Below, piece by piece: positions 1 through 5,849 of a stretch of DNA of 49,807 nucleotides (positions within the stretch are counted from its first letter, which is position 1; each line of letters starts with the position of its first letter). The translations under genes and the position numbers were made by a program. Source of the DNA: Methanomicrobiales archaeon HGW-Methanomicrobiales-2 (lineage in GTDB: Archaea; Halobacteriota; Methanomicrobia; Methanomicrobiales; Methanoculleaceae); assembly GCA_002839645.1 (NCBI GenBank), contig PGYL01000030.1:1-49807 (forward strand). Reading direction: 5' to 3'. The notes under the pieces are model-generated. The model was given only the letters and a program-made list of their open reading frames with translations. It had not been told where the DNA came from and made no database searches.

Positions 1-334
1 CCTCGCGCCCCGATATGCCCCGGGTGAAGGTCTGCTGGAGGTCGCCGGAGACAAGCCCGAGGTGTGACCGAAGGTCGAAGGCGTCCCACCGGTCCCGCCC
101 CCGGAACCTGAAGGTGACGTCCGGGCCCCGGCAGGATGGGTAGTACTCGCGGGTGATCGTCCGGATGAGCGACGATTTCCCGGCACCGTTCGGTCCGAGG
201 ATGGCGATATGCTCCCCCTCCGGGATGGTGAGCGAGATCCGGTCGAGGAGTCTGTGGCCGTCCCGGACGACGCTGACGTTCTGGAACTCGACGAGCGGCG
301 GTGACTGTTGAACGCCGGCGGTGTTGTCGGTCAT
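1..334 (-). CDS. ABC transporter ATP-binding protein, 3' end outside window
   Basis: Reading the minus strand from the ATG at 334 gives 111 codons that run off the left edge. After about 15 polar residues comes a typical ABC ATPase start: a beta-strand region (LVEFQNVSVVRDG), then Walker A GPNGAGKSS at residues 47-55, then TREYYPSCRGPDVTFRFRG and a Q-loop-like segment (GLVSGDLQQTF). The short post-Walker segment with REYYP resembles ModF/PhrA-like ATPases of metal or molybdate uptake; the substrate cannot be read from this fragment. The Walker B and signature motifs lie outside the window. It follows the membrane-protein operon after 93 bases in the same direction, so it may be co-transcribed. 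An upstream ATG near 354 is in another frame and was not used. Confidence 0.85.
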   Translation of the reverse strand, partial: MTDNTAGVQQSPPLVEFQNVSVVRDGHRLLDRISLTIPEGEHIAILGPNGAGKSSLIRTITREYYPSCRGPDVTFRFRGRDRWDAFDLRSHLGLVSGDLQQTFTRGISGRE

Positions 335-427: not shown

Positions 428-1171
428 TCATCGCGGGGAACCGAGCAGCGCGGCAACCCTCTCCGGGTCGTCTGTGTAGACGTGGAGGAACCCGGCGGGT
501 ACCAGCGTCACTCTGACGCGGCCGGGATACCGCAGGCTGACCAGGGCGCGGTAGAGCAACTCCAGCATGAACACAGCAAAACCGACCGCCAGGAGAACCT
601 GAAAGCCGAAATAAGAGTCGTCAGTCTGGCTGCCCGGGTAGCGCATCAACCAGTTTCCCACGGTGGCAAAGAACATCACTGCAGCCATGAGTATCAGGAG
701 CAGCGCGGACGCCCAGCGAGGTATAGCGAGGTAGGGGCGCTTAACCTCGACCGACCGGATCGTATCCTTTCCGAAGACGAGCGACCGGGTATGCGATCTC
801 CGGACGATGACGGAGTTCCCGGAGGACTCTATCGCGGTTCGATACGGATCGAAGTAGAGGCGCCATGCGGCCCACGACAGAAGGGAGACGGCCATGAAGG
901 TAAAGGTGAGCCCTGGCCACAGGGAGGGGATCAGGACGGATATCACGAAGAGAAAGAGGAAGATGAGGACAGCGAACGGCATCAGCACAAAAAAGCGAGG
1001 ACTGGTGTATTCCACGAATACGTCCTCCACCGCCTCCCGGCTGCCTTCCCTCGCGGTTTCAAGCCCAACCTCGCCGTCGGGGGCGACATACTGTCGCCTG
1101 CTGGTGCCGGCCGCCGCCGCGTTCGGACACCAGCCGAGTTTTTTCCGGATATACTCCATGAAGACCGTCAT
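428..1171 (-). CDS. LGWCP-motif membrane protein, paralog 1 (DUF1673-like)
   Basis: 247 residues. The N-terminus carries IRKKLGWCPNAA (residues 8-19), followed by a short soluble stretch with APDGEVG and an EAVEDVFVEY segment, then hydrophobic segments at roughly residues 58-95 (two), 135-155 and 180-205, and a short soluble tail with VYTDDPERVAALLG. The same plan recurs in the next genes upstream, so these are paralogs. The architecture matches the methanogen family I know as DUF1673 (unknown function); this is recognition from memory. The ATG overlaps the stop of the preceding gene by four bases (ATGA), implying translational coupling. Function unknown: a membrane protein with a conserved cytoplasmic Cys-Pro motif and a C-terminal DDP tail is all that can be said. 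Confidence 0.85.
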   Translation of the reverse strand: MTVFMEYIRKKLGWCPNAAAAGTSRRQYVAPDGEVGLETAREGSREAVEDVFVEYTSPRFFVLMPFAVLIFLFLFVISVLIPSLWPGLTFTFMAVSLLSWAAWRLYFDPYRTAIESSGNSVIVRRSHTRSLVFGKDTIRSVEVKRPYLAIPRWASALLLILMAAVMFFATVGNWLMRYPGSQTDDSYFGFQVLLAVGFAVFMLELLYRALVSLRYPGRVRVTLVPAGFLHVYTDDPERVAALLGSPR

Positions 1172-1860
1172 TCGGCCACCCCCAGCATTCGGGCTATCCG
1201 TCCGGGGTCATCGGTGTAGATCACAGCGACCCTCTTCTTAGCAGTCGTTATCACCAGGGCCTGCGGGTAGCGGGTCCGCACGCAGGTGCGGTAGATGATC
1301 ACGGGGAAGAAGATCGCGGCGGCAACGCCGAAGATAAACCGCATGGAGGTTGGATTCTCAAATCCGGCGTACACGCTGCCGGCAGCCGATACGAGAAGCG
1401 CCGCCAGCGCTACCGCAAGGAGCCAGGGGGAGATAGGGGGTTTGTTCTCCTTCACTTCCGCCTTCACGACGGCATCCTTCGGGATGACGATCGACGGGAA
1501 GAGCGGCCGCCTGATGGTGACGGCGTCACGGGTGATCTCGATGCAGGCTCTTCGTACAGCCCCGTAAAACTCCAGAGCGGAGTAACCCAGCATGATAGCC
1601 AGCAGAAGGAGGCCCCCTGCCGGAGCCATGGCGAAGAGGCATCCGATGAAACAGGCGCCGGCAACCAGCAGCAGGAAGAGCCTTCCCGGAGTGCCGATCG
1701 GGCCGTAGTCCACCAGTGCACCCTCCACCACCTCCCGGCCGCCCTCTGCCACCGTCCCGACCTTGCCATCCGGCGCGGCATATCGCCTGCCGGCCCCGGC
1801 CATTGCCGCATTCGGGCACCAACCGAGCTTCTTTCGTATCGCCTCGGAGAACTTCATCAT
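1168..1860 (-). CDS. LGWCP-motif membrane protein, paralog 2 (DUF1673-like)
   Basis: 230 residues, closest to paralog 1: IRKKLGWCPNAAMAG at the N-terminus, then RRYAAPDGKVG, a GGREVVEGALVDY segment, paired hydrophobic helices around residues 58-95, a PH-like strand-rich middle (TRDAVTIRRPLFPSIVIP), two more hydrophobic segments, and the tail VIYTDDPGRIARMLG. The shared start and end motifs with a divergent middle suggest duplication followed by diversification. Its ATG overlaps the stop of paralog 3 by four bases (ATGA) and its own stop overlaps the start of paralog 1 in the same way. A second ATG follows the first immediately; the first was kept because it makes the overlap. No enzymatic motif is visible. 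Confidence 0.85.
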   Translation of the reverse strand: MMKFSEAIRKKLGWCPNAAMAGAGRRYAAPDGKVGTVAEGGREVVEGALVDYGPIGTPGRLFLLLVAGACFIGCLFAMAPAGGLLLLAIMLGYSALEFYGAVRRACIEITRDAVTIRRPLFPSIVIPKDAVVKAEVKENKPPISPWLLAVALAALLVSAAGSVYAGFENPTSMRFIFGVAAAIFFPVIIYRTCVRTRYPQALVITTAKKRVAVIYTDDPGRIARMLGVAE

Positions 1861-2459
1861 ACGCGTTCACCCTCCGTTGCCTTATCCAGGGCATACATCG
1901 ATCCCTTCTCTGCGATCAGGGTAGTGCGGTGCCGCCGCTCCCAGAGGATCGTGACACCGTACTGGGCCCAGCCGAAGAGGCTCAAGGCCAGCGTGAACCT
2001 GACTATCCAGCCGGGCATATCGCTCAGGACAAAATAACCAATAACGGCGACGAGAATAACAGCGGCCGCCGGCGTACTCAGGCGTCGGACGATGCGCAGT
2101 CCGGGGGTCATGTTGGCCCTGACGAACTCCCCGGCGGCAACCCGTGCATACTGTTTCCGATAACTGAGCAGGAAGCCGAGGGCCGCTCCCACCCCGATGG
2201 CGAGGCCCGTCCAAACAGCGAGGTGCCCGAAAGCGTCCTCGACCAGGATAAAGAGCGCCGCTGCCGCCGCCGATGCGGCCAGCGCCGCGACGAGCAACTG
2301 GTTATGGTAGCGGTGCCACCATCCGGGTTCGACCCGGAGGGGGCCGTCCTGTCCGCCCGCCGCTGCGGCCGTCACCGGCCGTACCTTGAGATCCGGCCGC
2401 ATCGACGCCTGCATGGGACACCATCCGAGGTACGCCCGTATCGTCTCCATGAGAGTCAT
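1857..2459 (-). CDS. LGWCP-motif membrane protein, paralog 3 (DUF1673-like)
   Basis: 200 residues. It begins MTLMETIRAYLGWCPMQASM, then a short linker rich in Gly/Ala, hydrophobic segments around residues 52-72, 78-95, 127-147 and 150-165, and a tail LWERRHRTTLIAEKG. It lacks the TDDP tail of paralogs 1 and 2. The IRAYLGWCP start is shared with paralog 4, so 3 and 4 form one subgroup and 1 and 2 another. Start ATG overlaps the stop of the 43-codon ORF by four bases. Family identity (DUF1673-like) is from overall plan and the LGWCP motif; no function is known to me. Confidence 0.82.
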   Translation of the reverse strand: MTLMETIRAYLGWCPMQASMRPDLKVRPVTAAAAGGQDGPLRVEPGWWHRYHNQLLVAALAASAAAAALFILVEDAFGHLAVWTGLAIGVGAALGFLLSYRKQYARVAAGEFVRANMTPGLRIVRRLSTPAAAVILVAVIGYFVLSDMPGWIVRFTLALSLFGWAQYGVTILWERRHRTTLIAEKGSMYALDKATEGERV

Positions 2460-2587
2460 AACATCATCTCCAGGATTCTTTGTCTGCTCGCTACCATTTC
2501 CCTCAAAGTGGGTTCACTGCTGATCACCACCCCGAATATCTCCCGGACAGGTGTGCAGACCAGATCCATCGCTCCAAGAGTTATCAT
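2456..2587 (-). CDS. 43-residue coupled ORF, or frameshifted tail of paralog 4
   Basis: A small ORF (begins MITLGAMDLVCTPVREIFG, ends ILEMML) fills exactly the gap between paralogs 4 and 3. Its ATG shares one base with the stop of paralog 4 (TGATG) and its stop overlaps the next ATG (ATGA), so it keeps the unbroken chain of coupling. The segment VVISSEPTLREMV loosely resembles the VYTDDPERVAALLG tail of paralogs 1 and 2, and paralog 4 ends early after WERRRTPEGTD. It may therefore be the C-terminal tail of paralog 4 separated by a frameshift, natural or from sequencing, rather than an independent peptide. The sequence alone does not decide. Confidence 0.5.
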   Translation of the reverse strand: MITLGAMDLVCTPVREIFGVVISSEPTLREMVASRQRILEMML

Positions 2588-3348
2588 CAATCTGTTCCCT
2601 CCGGTGTGCGTCGTCGTTCCCAGATGTAGAGGATGGGAAAAGAAACGATACCAATAAGCACGATTGCCTGGAGGAGGGGAACAATGGGATACCCCAATGC
2701 CAGGTAGCGCAGAAGAAAGATCATGGCTACTATGAGGTAGAAGACAACTGATCGCGCAACGGTGACGCGTTGAACACCACCGTCGGTGAAGACAATGCGG
2801 GCCAGGAGCAGGCCTATGACGATAAGGGCGGGAAGCCAGTAGATCTGGCTGATAGAGTACGCAAGGGATGCGTAAAGGTAGATTAGGAAGATTATAGCGA
2901 GAAGGATGGCATCGAACGCTTTCTCGATGGCAGTTTCTCTTCGCTTCGTTTTCTTCTCTCTGCTTCTTAACCCGAGAGCGTGATGGAGGATGCTCACAGG
3001 ATTGGGATCGGTCAGATGCTCTTTTCGCCTGTACCACACCACGATGCAGAAGACTACTGCAGTGATCGCCAGTGGCAGGGGAAACAACAGAAATGCCGGT
3101 ATTGGGAGATAACCAGCCGTAATGACGAAAGCAGTGATGATGACCAAGATCCAGAAGACTGCAGTTGAGCGCCAGAATTCTTCTTTGACGATGGAATCGA
3201 GCTTCATACTTATACTGCCTATGCGCCGTCGGCCGTCATGCGGAGTGTCCCCGCGCATACTAGGCCCCGGTTGCATCTGCCGGTGCGCCTGCCCCTCCGC
3301 GGGACACCACCCCAGGTACGCCCGTATCGTCTCCAGGAGCGGCATCAT
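2587..3348 (-). CDS. LGWCP-motif membrane protein, paralog 4 (DUF1673-like)
   Basis: 253 residues, the longest of the four. N-terminus MMPLLETIRAYLGWCPAEG, then a His/Gln/Arg-rich linker, a pair of hydrophobic helices (about residues 62-105), a basic stretch REKKTKRRETAIEKAF, and two further hydrophobic pairs (about 148-185 and 200-240), ending WERRRTPEGTD. The base composition of the middle is visibly more AT-rich than paralogs 1-3. Its ATG overlaps the end of the HTH gene by four bases. The tail is shorter than in paralogs 1 and 2, and the downstream 43-codon ORF may encode the missing part. Unknown function; probably a membrane partner of the other paralogs. Confidence 0.82.
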   Translation of the reverse strand: MMPLLETIRAYLGWCPAEGQAHRQMQPGPSMRGDTPHDGRRRIGSISMKLDSIVKEEFWRSTAVFWILVIITAFVITAGYLPIPAFLLFPLPLAITAVVFCIVVWYRRKEHLTDPNPVSILHHALGLRSREKKTKRRETAIEKAFDAILLAIIFLIYLYASLAYSISQIYWLPALIVIGLLLARIVFTDGGVQRVTVARSVVFYLIVAMIFLLRYLALGYPIVPLLQAIVLIGIVSFPILYIWERRRTPEGTD

Positions 3349-3791
3349 ACCATCTCCCGGAGTTTCGTAAAGAGTTCGTCGGCCATACGGGTCGGGTCGT
3401 CGGTCTTTTCAAGCGCGATCCCCAATTCGTCCGCGTAGCCCCAGAGGAGCTCGATGCACCGGGTGTACCGCTGACATGCGCCGCAGTCGCCCTCGTGCTC
3501 GTACCAGACCTGCACCCCGCGGTCTGCCGAGACGAAGACGATGGCCGCGGCATCGAAGGGGACGGAGCGGCCGAAGAGAACGCCTTTTTCCGCGTTCATG
3601 CGCTCGACCTCGATCTGGTTCGCCTGCGCCATTTCGACGAGCGTCTCCTCGACCTTCCGGTCCATGGCAAGCAGCGCCTTCGAGACCGCCTGGCGGGATA
3701 TGCGGAAGCGGTCTGCGATCTGGATGTTCGGAAGACCGCCGCGGCGGAGGTTCCAGAACGCGAACTGTCTCTCATCCAGGGATAGGGACAT
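3345..3791 (-). CDS. HTH regulator leading the LGWCP operon, with Cys cluster
   Basis: 148 residues. The first 50 form a sigma-region-4-like helix-turn-helix: LDERQFAFWNLRRGGLPNIQ then IADRFRISRQAVSKAL as turn and recognition helix. A short coiled segment (residues 44-66) could dimerise. The C-terminal half contains a strand segment and a Cys cluster C103-x2-C106-x5-C112, which could bind a metal or sense redox state, then an acidic tail with TDDPTRMADEL like the tails of the membrane paralogs. It is first in the operon and overlaps paralog 4 by four bases. A palindrome between its TATA box and start codon suggests autoregulation (inference). The ATG at 3791 sits 25-30 bases from the TATA box, consistent with a leaderless message. 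Confidence 0.85.
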   Translation of the reverse strand: MSLSLDERQFAFWNLRRGGLPNIQIADRFRISRQAVSKALLAMDRKVEETLVEMAQANQIEVERMNAEKGVLFGRSVPFDAAAIVFVSADRGVQVWYEHEGDCGACQRYTRCIELLWGYADELGIALEKTDDPTRMADELFTKLREMV

Positions 3792-3793
3792 AC

Positions 3794-3821
3794 GTCAACA
3801 TATTCAGGTTGACGATATAAA
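3794..3821 (-). promoter_or_regulatory. Promoter and candidate operator of the LGWCP operon
   Basis: On the minus strand a TATA box (TTTATATC, 3814-3821) lies about 27 bases before the ATG at 3791. Directly downstream is an inverted repeat with perfect six-base arms, GTCAAC-N8-GTTGAC (3794-3813), which fills the space between TATA box and expected start site. A protein bound there would block initiation. The obvious candidate is the HTH protein encoded by the first gene. Confidence 0.65.
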
Positions 3822-3975
3822 TAATTCGGTTTGTCCCTCATCGAACTCACTCCTGAGCCCCTCCGCGTGCTGGAGGAGACCGATACTTCACCCACACCAA
3901 TTTCTGCTTGAGGATATCCTTCGAATCGCGCATACCACCGCACAGAACGCAAGCCTTAACTGCCCGGAGATCGTT

Positions 3976-4026: not shown

Positions 4027-4605
4027 ATGACCGGGGAGAGGAACGAAAAGAAAGCAGCCATCGCCGGAGCAGCCGTCAGGCTCTTCACGGAGAGGGGATT
4101 TCACGGCACCCCCACGTCGCTCATCGCGCGCGAGGCAGGCGTCTCGAACGGGACGCTCTTCCATTACTTCCCGACGAAGGAGGAACTCATCAACTTCGCC
4201 TACTTTGATATCAAGAGCCGGATGGCGGAGGAGATCGGCAGGGGAGTCGACAGGGAACAGGCGAACAGGGAGAGGATGCAGAGATTGTGGCGGAGCGCAG
4301 TTCTCTGGGGGGTCGATCACCCCGACGAATATATGTTCGTCCAGCAGTTCTGCTCGTCCCCGTTCGTCAGGAAACTGCCCCCGGAGGAGTTCCTGAAGGA
4401 CGCCCCGGCCGTCTTCGAGATCCTTACCGAAACCCTCGGGAAGAGCTGCTTCGAGGGCATGGATATCGAGGTCGCCTTCTCCGTCATATCCTCTCCGATC
4501 GACGCCGTTGTCAGGGCGATCATCAGCCCGGGCGGTAACCTTGACGCAGACCGGTTGATCGACGCTTCATTCGAGATCGTATGGAGGGGGTTGACGGGAG
4601 AATGA
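4027..4605 (+). CDS. TetR family transcriptional regulator
   Basis: 192 residues from the ATG at 4027. Residues 8-50 are a clear TetR HTH: AAIAGAAVRLFTERGFHGT, then LIAREAGVSNGTLFHYFPTKEELI with the NGTLFHYF recognition helix. The rest is the helical ligand domain. A longer frame upstream is open, but ATG 4027 gives the normal TetR start a few residues before the HTH and places the operator outside the gene. The stop overlaps a possible ATG of the reductase gene (ATGA) and the two genes are probably one operon. It most likely represses itself and the aldo/keto reductase; the inducer is unknown. A weak TATA-like CTTAAC lies near 3955. Confidence 0.9.
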   Translation: MTGERNEKKAAIAGAAVRLFTERGFHGTPTSLIAREAGVSNGTLFHYFPTKEELINFAYFDIKSRMAEEIGRGVDREQANRERMQRLWRSAVLWGVDHPDEYMFVQQFCSSPFVRKLPPEEFLKDAPAVFEILTETLGKSCFEGMDIEVAFSVISSPIDAVVRAIISPGGNLDADRLIDASFEIVWRGLTGE

Positions 4606-4640
4606 CGGGTAACGATTCTTCGAGACAGGAGATACTGACC

Positions 4641-5849
4641 ATGCTGTATCGGACGATGGAGAAGACCGGGGACGAACTCTCGGTGCTGGGCTTCGGCTGC
4701 ATGAGGCTGCCGACAAAGGGTATGAGCATCGATGAAGAGCGGGCGATACGGCAGATCCGGTACGCCGTCGACCACGGGGTGAACTACGTCGACACCGCGT
4801 TGATCTACCCGGGGAGCGAGCAGGTGCTCGGCCGTGCGCTTGCCGACGGCTACCGGGAAAAGGTAAAACTGGCGACGAAACTGCCGCACATGCTCGTCAC
4901 ATCCCGCGAGGATATGGATCGGATGCTCAATCTCCAGCTTAAGACCTTAAAGACAGACCATATCGATTACTACCTGATCCACAGCCTGACGAGCACCGAG
5001 GGCTGGAGAAAGATGAAGGACCTCGGGGTCGCGGACTTTCTCGACAGCGCGAAGGCAGACGGACGCATCGTGAACGCGGGATTCTCATCGCACAGCACCG
5101 TCGACGATTTCAAGGAGATCGTCGACGACTACGACTGGGATTTCTGCCAGATTCAATATAACTACTTAGACGAGATGAACCAGGCCGGAACCGAGGGGCT
5201 CAGGTATGCGGCTTCAAAAGGGCTCGGCGTTGTCATCATGGAGCCGCTCCGGGGCGGTTACCTCGCAAAGAACCCGCCGGCACCGGTGCAGGCCGTCTGG
5301 GACGAGGCCGACGTGAAGAGGACTCCGGCCGAATGGGGGCTCAGGTGGGTCTGGAACCATCCCGAGGTAAGCGTGGTTCTCTCGGGGATGAACGACGAGC
5401 AGCACATCGAGGAGAATATCAGGATCGCCAACGAAGCCTTCCCAAACTCCCTCACCGAAAAGGAGCTCGAGATCGTCGGCCGGGCGGCGGAAGCCTACCG
5501 TGAGACGAACCGGGTGGGCTGCACCGGGTGCCGGTACTGCATGCCCTGCCCCGCGGGCGTCAACATCCCCGGGTGCTTCGAGGCCTATAACACCGACGGA
5601 GGAACGCTCCAGTCGAAGGTGATGTACCACCTCCGGGTCGGAGGGAAGATGGACGGAGCGGAACCGGCGTATGCGTCGTTATGCAGGAACTGCGGCAGAT
5701 GCGTGAAGGTATGCCCCCAGCATCTCCCCATCCCGGAGCACCTCGCACAGGTCGCGAGGGAGTACGAGACCGTCGGCGCCCGGATCATAGGGGGCGTAAC
5801 GGTGTACGCTATGAGACTCATGCGCTGGAACACGATGAGGAAAGCCTGA
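4641..5849 (+). CDS. Aldo/keto reductase with C-terminal [4Fe-4S] clusters
   Basis: 402 residues. Residues 1-290 are an AKR barrel: LGFGCMRLPTKG, the Asp-Tyr pair in YVDTALIYPGSE, Lys in VKLATKLP and His in YYLIHSLTS make the catalytic tetrad; LSGMNDEQHIEENI is the cofactor-end segment. Residues 300-370 carry two cysteine motifs, CTGCRYCMPCPAGVNIP and CRNCGRCVKVCPQHLPIP, as in the COG1453 iron-sulfur AKR family. The start at 4641 follows a good ribosome binding site (GGAG); an in-frame ATG at 4602 overlapping the TetR stop is the alternative and would add 13 residues. Substrate unknown; the clusters suggest electron input from ferredoxin rather than a purely nicotinamide-driven reaction. Confidence 0.9.
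   Translation: MLYRTMEKTGDELSVLGFGCMRLPTKGMSIDEERAIRQIRYAVDHGVNYVDTALIYPGSEQVLGRALADGYREKVKLATKLPHMLVTSREDMDRMLNLQLKTLKTDHIDYYLIHSLTSTEGWRKMKDLGVADFLDSAKADGRIVNAGFSSHSTVDDFKEIVDDYDWDFCQIQYNYLDEMNQAGTEGLRYAASKGLGVVIMEPLRGGYLAKNPPAPVQAVWDEADVKRTPAEWGLRWVWNHPEVSVVLSGMNDEQHIEENIRIANEAFPNSLTEKELEIVGRAAEAYRETNRVGCTGCRYCMPCPAGVNIPGCFEAYNTDGGTLQSKVMYHLRVGGKMDGAEPAYASLCRNCGRCVKVCPQHLPIPEHLAQVAREYETVGARIIGGVTVYAMRLMRWNTMRKA

Follow-up and report, generated by a model that had tools for sequence, protein, structure and literature searches.

Regulator-led arrays of membrane proteins with a common N-terminal head in methanogenic archaea: a candidate autorepressed circuit

Why do several membrane proteins of largely different build begin with the same short sequence and stand together behind one regulator gene? 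This question is raised by a locus at positions 428 to 3791 of contig PGYL01000030.1 (assembly GCA_002839645.1, positions 1 to 49,807, the whole of which is called the window here) from the Methanomicrobiales archaeon HGW-Methanomicrobiales-2, in which the gene for a helix-turn-helix (HTH) regulator is followed by genes for four membrane proteins, named A to D. A first interpretation from the letters alone, called the sequence-only reading in the following, regarded these proteins as DUF1673-like paralogs that form a hetero-oligomeric membrane complex. The comparison with related loci revealed an operon with an operator at a fixed place, an N-terminal head that is linked to the regulator and matches it in class, and a turnover of the gene cassettes behind the regulator. 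We propose that the operon is an autorepressed circuit in which the tagged membrane proteins dock the repressor and which serves the defence of the envelope or against peptide toxins, a reading for which we see the arguments as evenly balanced.

The head, IRxxLGWCPN, is the unifying feature of the set. It is present at the start of all four membrane proteins, as the sequence-only reading had recognized, and covers for example residues 2-17 of A (3298-3345). Among 205 aligned class 1 heads (the classes are described below) the cysteine is invariant (100%), glycine (98%), tryptophan (99%) and proline (98%) are nearly so, and the preceding short segment is rich in isoleucine and in arginine or lysine. 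The search of 15 genomes with a degenerate coding pattern for a hydrophobic residue followed by GWCPN detected 47 sites compared to 0 in the reversed control, and 46 of the 47 lie, by their coordinates, in arrays led by the regulator gene. One orphan head gene (L183 in genome G195) is unlinked; it encodes a protein with six transmembrane (TM) segments and has its own TATA box and operator. In genomes G193 and G194, an extra operator occurs within the array, approximately 90-110 bp before a head. On the level of the order (232 genomes), DUF1673 was found in 78 genomes, the regulator in 97 and both in 76, while in a sample of the phylum 54 of 55 genomes with DUF1673 also carry the regulator (Fisher p 5e-50, uncorrected for phylogeny). 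Moreover, of 101 distinct regulator loci, 100 continue codirectionally with one or more genes that carry the head; only L113, whose regulator shows 40% identity, lacks such a gene and has a bPH_5 membrane protein (1.6e-18) as neighbour. The predicted order of HTH gene and then membrane protein is therefore conserved across Methanomicrobiales and in other methanogen lineages of the phylum, and the relatives do not carry such genes singly and unlinked, because nearly every head lies in a regulator-led array.

The regulators fall into two classes, which differ in operator and in head. Class 1, to which the regulator of the window belongs, uses the half-site GTCAAC (128 of 160), whereas the regulators of class 2, with a length of approximately 154-155 amino acids, are found with GTAAAT (37 of 44) in the operator GTAAAT-N8-ATTTAC. 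At position 3 of the half-site, C occurs in 144/160 class 1 cases and A in all 44 of class 2. The recognition helix reads ISRQAVS in class 1 versus ITRQGVS in class 2, and the fixed differences of class 2 comprise S32T and A35G in this helix, R108E, L115F and L116I by the cysteine motif, and F141L. The class 2 head has the form W[L/F]GLC[R/P]K, for example GLCRK: 41 heads with GLC or GFC and none with GWC were counted in class 2, compared to 212 with GWC and 2 with GLC in class 1 (41/41 vs 2/214). One of the latter two belongs to a doubtful open reading frame (ORF) of 59 amino acids, while the other (L121) is a real exception. Three families of bodies, as the parts behind the head are called here, occur with both regulator classes. 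In the tree of the 6-TM family at least four class switches are present, three of them forced by well-supported branches, and the PH and 2-TM families show one switch each; in every switch the head matches the regulator and not the body. It is mainly because the head tracks the regulator at these body switches that both are thought to recognize each other.

The arrangement of the promoter gives the second line of evidence. In the window, the TATA box of the operon promoter, TTATTTATAT, lies at 3815-3824 on the minus strand, and just downstream of it, between TATA box and start codon, the palindrome GTCAAC-N8-GTTGAC, here GTCAACCTGAATATGTTGAC, occupies positions 3813-3794 of the same strand and ends 2 bp before the ATG of the regulator gene. 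This 6-8-6 palindrome of 20 bp was found in 98 of 102 homologous loci to end exactly 2 bp before the regulator start codon, and a TATA-like element, which is common in these loci, begins at -27 to -30 in 87 of the 102. The spacing of TATA box, operator and start would suit a leaderless transcript, and a protein bound at this position should block initiation. Hence, autoregulation through the palindrome appears highly probable from the sequence, and its sign is most likely repression. The genome of the window contains one perfect operator site, while the search allowing at most one mismatch gave 5 sites compared to 3 in the reversed control; the regulon in this genome is most likely the operon itself.

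Extra operator sites exist in other genomes, where most of them adjoin TATA boxes. Such sites were found approximately 52-67 bp upstream of genes for Yip1-domain proteins in five genomes (L176-L180) and upstream of genes for DUF4013 proteins in two genomes (L181-L182), which suggests that the membrane regulon of larger genomes is more extensive. An unlinked operator with TATA box is situated 168-224 bp upstream of a gene for an ABC exporter of approximately 610 amino acids with fused ATPase in two large genomes (L188:2059-4132 and L189:2044-4058), which probably belong to Methanosarcina. A less certain operator lies 344 bp upstream of a gene for a LolA-like lipoprotein. Furthermore, genes for large secreted proteins lie behind class 2 arrays (L092:11645-13487 and L091:4417-5512) and possess a separate class 2 operator situated a few bases ahead of their start; one of these proteins scores as DUF3821.

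The regulator itself (3345-3791, minus strand) consists of an N-terminal HTH and a C-terminal domain and is a distant relative of Tfx and EnfR, to which the matches are weak but consistent. With the NCBIfam Tfx profile TIGR00721, which spans both domains, it reached 13.2 bits, below the cut-off of 60.25; among 26 diverse homologs used for profile and motif tests, 23 gave Tfx matches (best 5.6e-6, below cut-off) and 10 matched EnfR. Structural comparison with Foldseek placed EnfR on ranks 1-4 with weak E-values of 0.12-0.26 for a model with a predicted local distance difference test (pLDDT) score of 64, and the VIA alignment of this moderate-confidence model with EnfR (8hno) gave Z 7.3 and a root-mean-square deviation of 5.8 over 93 residues. 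The C-terminal part contains the motif H99-x3-C103-x2-C106-x5-C112 (3456-3497, minus strand), whose three cysteines are invariant in all 26 homologs and whose histidine is nearly so. The profile PF10588 (NADH-G_4Fe-4S_3) matches 13 of the 26, with 4.8e-4 as best value. The spacing H-x3-C-x2-C-x5-C is that of the ligands of the N5 [4Fe-4S] cluster of NuoG, and H99, C103, C106 and C112 of the window regulator agree with it. It is likely that the regulator carries a [4Fe-4S] cluster with these candidate His/Cys3 ligands.

The bodies are much more diverse than the term four paralogs implies. C (1168-1860, minus strand) combines the head with a body of the D family, a predicted PH-like domain interrupted by TM hairpins, and matches D end to end with 35% identity, whereas A and B as well as B and D align only over approximately 17 N-terminal residues. 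Outside this part there is little similarity between A, B and the C/D pair. The assignment to DUF1673 (PF07895, Pfam gathering score 30.4 bits) could be maintained for B (33.6 bits, 4.9e-8) and D (38.2 bits, 1.9e-9); C remained below the cut-off (26.8 bits, 5.8e-6) with a match confined to the head, and A reached 14.4 bits (E-value 0.038). A (2587-3348, minus strand) is a protein with approximately six TM segments and a body of family F7, which is distantly related to DUF1673, while B (1857-2459, minus strand) has approximately four. For D (428-1171, minus strand), the structure model predicts a PH-like body split by two TM hairpins; its pLDDT was 67 and the Foldseek E-values were weak, while the top rows of VIA-align were almost all PH-, PTB- or FERM-type chains with Z 8-10 over approximately residues 44-247.

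Clustering of the post-head sequences resulted in 21 groups, ten of them with at least four members, and at least ten body families carry the head. Among these, the F4 body (17 loci) corresponds to SdpI/YfhL plus DUF1648, since the cut-offs of PF13630 and PF07853 were passed by all eight tested proteins, and the F1 body corresponds to DUF6159/GPDPase_memb. Some head-bearing proteins can thus be assigned to bacterial peptide-toxin-immunity families. Solved structures were also searched by sequence for the regulator and the SdpI body, which gave nothing useful. A role in anti-phage defence was rejected, because the PADLOC models did not match A to D, and the sole match of the regulator was a weak one through its HTH (CARF-HTH model, 0.0084). 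In L114 (1880-3010), L123 (1739-2488), L115 and L117, the GWCP head is followed by a body resembling the core domain of AglB/STT3, with sub-threshold Pfam scores and a visible WWDY-like motif.

These observations can be combined into the following circuit. The HTH protein very probably binds the palindrome that separates the TATA box from its own start codon and, judged from this position, represses its own operon, while the putative His/Cys3 [4Fe-4S] cluster would supply a redox or iron input. The GWCP head would be a tag on the cytoplasmic side, with which each membrane protein docks to the regulator of its own class. A membrane protein engaged by a toxin or by envelope damage would then hold the repressor at the membrane and derepress the operon, similar to the logic of SdpI and SdpR. 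The bodies, whether of SdpI/YfhL type, PH-like, DUF6159/GPDPase_memb or DUF1673, might be fast-turnover proteins for envelope protection or peptide-toxin immunity. The capture of the repressor is suggested solely by the class matching of head and regulator; docking, release by the engaged membrane protein and the defence function are what we infer from it together with the known families. It is a rather tentative generalization that a tag of approximately 15 residues plugs many unrelated receptor or immunity bodies into one Fe-S repressor, with two paralogous circuits of one cell insulated from each other by operator and tag.

Several points speak against this circuit. Head and regulator covary in a trait that has just two states and switched few times, and a pairing of heads with each other would give the same pattern. 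The fixed position of the operator could also serve activation, and the likely Fe-S cluster is deduced from the ligand spacing and sub-threshold Pfam scores. Moreover, the SdpI/YfhL family is absent from the four proteins of the window according to Pfam, and the immunity function is derived from related arrays, since the bodies in the window are DUF1673- and PH-like. Near the operon no toxin gene was identified. Finally, the SdpI of Bacillus subtilis is not known to have such a head.

The best alternative is that the regulator alone senses redox state, oxygen or iron via an Fe-S cluster and represses the operon, while the heads have no contact with the regulator and serve to bring the membrane proteins together in homo- or hetero-oligomers. 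The invariant cysteines and nearly invariant histidine of the regulator fit such sensing, and if two sets of oligomers had to remain separate, their heads would have to differ by class as well. However, the head is retained in arrays with a single member, the same head is found on bodies with very different numbers of TM segments, and all heads in the 15 genomes sit behind a regulator gene or its operator. We regard this alternative as unlikely, though it deserves to be taken seriously.

It might also be assumed that recombination produced the common head as a side effect, in that cassettes join a 5' end already in place and gene conversion homogenizes the heads. The fast turnover of bodies and the fact that heads follow the locus would agree with that. 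However, the synonymous codon identity of heads with different bodies in Methanoculleus was 0.58 within arrays versus 0.57 between arrays. Since the comparison in this genus shows no greater similarity at synonymous positions inside an array than across arrays, the constraint on the head acts on the protein, and gene conversion as the cause of the similarity was rejected. The invariance of the cysteine and the near-invariance of GWCP in 205 class 1 heads across the phylum and the unlinked gene that retained head and operator also argue against recombination, which makes this explanation quite improbable.

The variation of the arrays bears on the complex suggested by the sequence-only reading. 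The scan of the genus Methanoculleus revealed 14 loci, all of them in comparable arrays; the regulator gene is on the contig in 12, where it always comes first, is 82-91% identical to that of the window, and the ABC ATPase gene lies beyond the array. Between regulator and ATPase, 2-7 genes of several types are found within this genus. Overall, the arrays comprise 1-12 head-bearing genes (maximum in L124), single-member arrays are common, and A is missing from many of them. The commonest spacings are -4 and -1, which apply to 160 of 263 head genes. Broken copies were also seen, namely frame-shifted or truncated head genes in L081 and L097, an early stop in L147 and a partial second regulator in L118, which fit a fast turnover of the arrays. 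The ABC ATPase, whose gene (2-334, minus strand) runs off the window edge, does follow D in the same direction after a gap of 93 bp and is a conserved neighbour in Methanoculleus; it is not an obligatory part, because it also occurs in genomes of the genus lacking an array and, in other genera, away from the array, so that it was rejected as partner and probably does not belong to the system. A defined hetero-oligomer of A to D in fixed order, perhaps with the ATPase, is compatible with the tight coupling, the common direction and the neighbouring ATPase in Methanoculleus, but is very improbable given the varying membership and order, the frequent absence of A and the ATPase without array, and a fixed four-subunit complex is unlikely.

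Regarding the coupling within the window, the operon is real, with five genes in one direction on the minus strand, and most of the proposed overlaps were found: the HTH/A and C/D junctions are ATGA overlaps and B/C overlap by four bases (TATGATG). A and B are not adjacent, with 127 bp between the A stop and the B start. This gap is filled by a 43-codon ORF (2456-2587, minus strand), which bridges both genes with a TGATG at its start and an ATGA at its end, and the coupling from A to B is continuous only if this ORF is translated. The ORF also occurs 3' of A in 7 other loci and accompanies A wherever the latter is found in Methanoculleus. In its frame, 127 non-synonymous and 29 synonymous differences were counted in five sequences; this substitution pattern lacks clear purifying selection, hence a conserved small protein was rejected, and the ORF is perhaps a translated spacer. 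The TDDP tail proposed as common to the HTH protein and two membrane proteins is probably a coincidence: in C and D it precedes, according to the model, the last helix of the PH-like domain, while in the HTH protein it precedes a different C-terminal helix and reads TADP or similar in many relatives, and a common functional tail was rejected because of these differing contexts. No second DUF1673 locus exists elsewhere in the genome of the window. Upstream of the operon, a divergent TetR-type regulator is encoded together with an aldo/keto-reductase-like protein that has 4Fe-4S cysteines (4027-5849).

DUF1673 with its MGWCP motif has belonged to the archaeal dark matter without a function since 2014. 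With the operator, the paired regulator and the tag that matches the regulator class, it becomes a circuit open to testing, for which the binding site is exact and both a protein contact and an output are predicted. If the heads do dock the regulator, this would represent an archaeal equivalent of immunity by repressor sequestration, with exchangeable receptors, and a natural case of paralogous circuits whose insulation acts at the level of the DNA and of the protein at once. It would mean modular one-to-many signalling from membrane to DNA that is widespread in methanogenic archaea, and an entry point to the little-known subject of how methanogens sense an attack on their envelope. Within the limited literature collection searched, no publication was found that deals with the operator, the matched heads or the pairing with the regulator, and the MGWCP motif appeared in a single paper, with no further relevant one beyond the DUF1673 dark-matter literature.

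The proteins of DUF1673 (PF07895, arCOG06827, supercluster SC.00027) were described as membrane proteins with an "MGWCP motif" and as dark matter expanded in Methanosarcina (PMC4158269, PMC4390880). B and D belong to them by the Pfam cut-off, and the motif and the behaviour as dark-matter islands are the same; however, the motif extends here beyond DUF1673, as a head of its own that is joined to ten or more body families. EnfR, a relative of Tfx, acts as a dimeric repressor whose binding site is a pseudo-palindrome close to a translation start (PMC10570040). Our regulator model appears to share with this group (TIGR00721, NF053597; PDB 8hno) the HTH, the long third helix and the alpha/beta C-terminal domain, and likewise the palindrome near the translation start, but the protein scores far below the family cut-offs and adds the H-x3-C-x2-C-x5-C motif, a shorter and strictly placed operator and a constant association with membrane proteins that carry the head. 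On encountering the toxin SdpC, the SdpI protein of B. subtilis captures the autorepressor SdpR at the membrane (PMC1626106); the sigma-W regulon of this bacterium includes ydbST as well as yfhL, the latter being listed there for resistance to SdpC (PMC3498285). In both systems a repressor and a polytopic membrane protein share one operon, with autorepression proposed here; an SdpI-family (PF13630) member stands behind the regulator in 17 related arrays and in none of the positions of the window operon, and the capture of the repressor by a membrane protein is the proposed common logic. YdbS and YdbT are bacterial PH proteins, and SdpR is an ArsR-type repressor, whereas the regulator here is Tfx/EnfR-like with a cysteine motif and serves up to approximately 12 bodies with a common N-terminal tag. 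A toxin operon was not observed in the present case. Membrane partners that are encoded next to a cytoplasmic regulator and hold it are also typical for LytTR regulator/membrane-inhibitor pairs such as BrsRM and HdrRM and for RsgI-type anti-sigma factors, of which the RsgI proteins have one short cytoplasmic domain in common and varied sensor bodies. Compared to these, other protein families are involved in the methanogen arrays, in which the shared part is reduced to approximately 15 residues and the partners are encoded in tandem.

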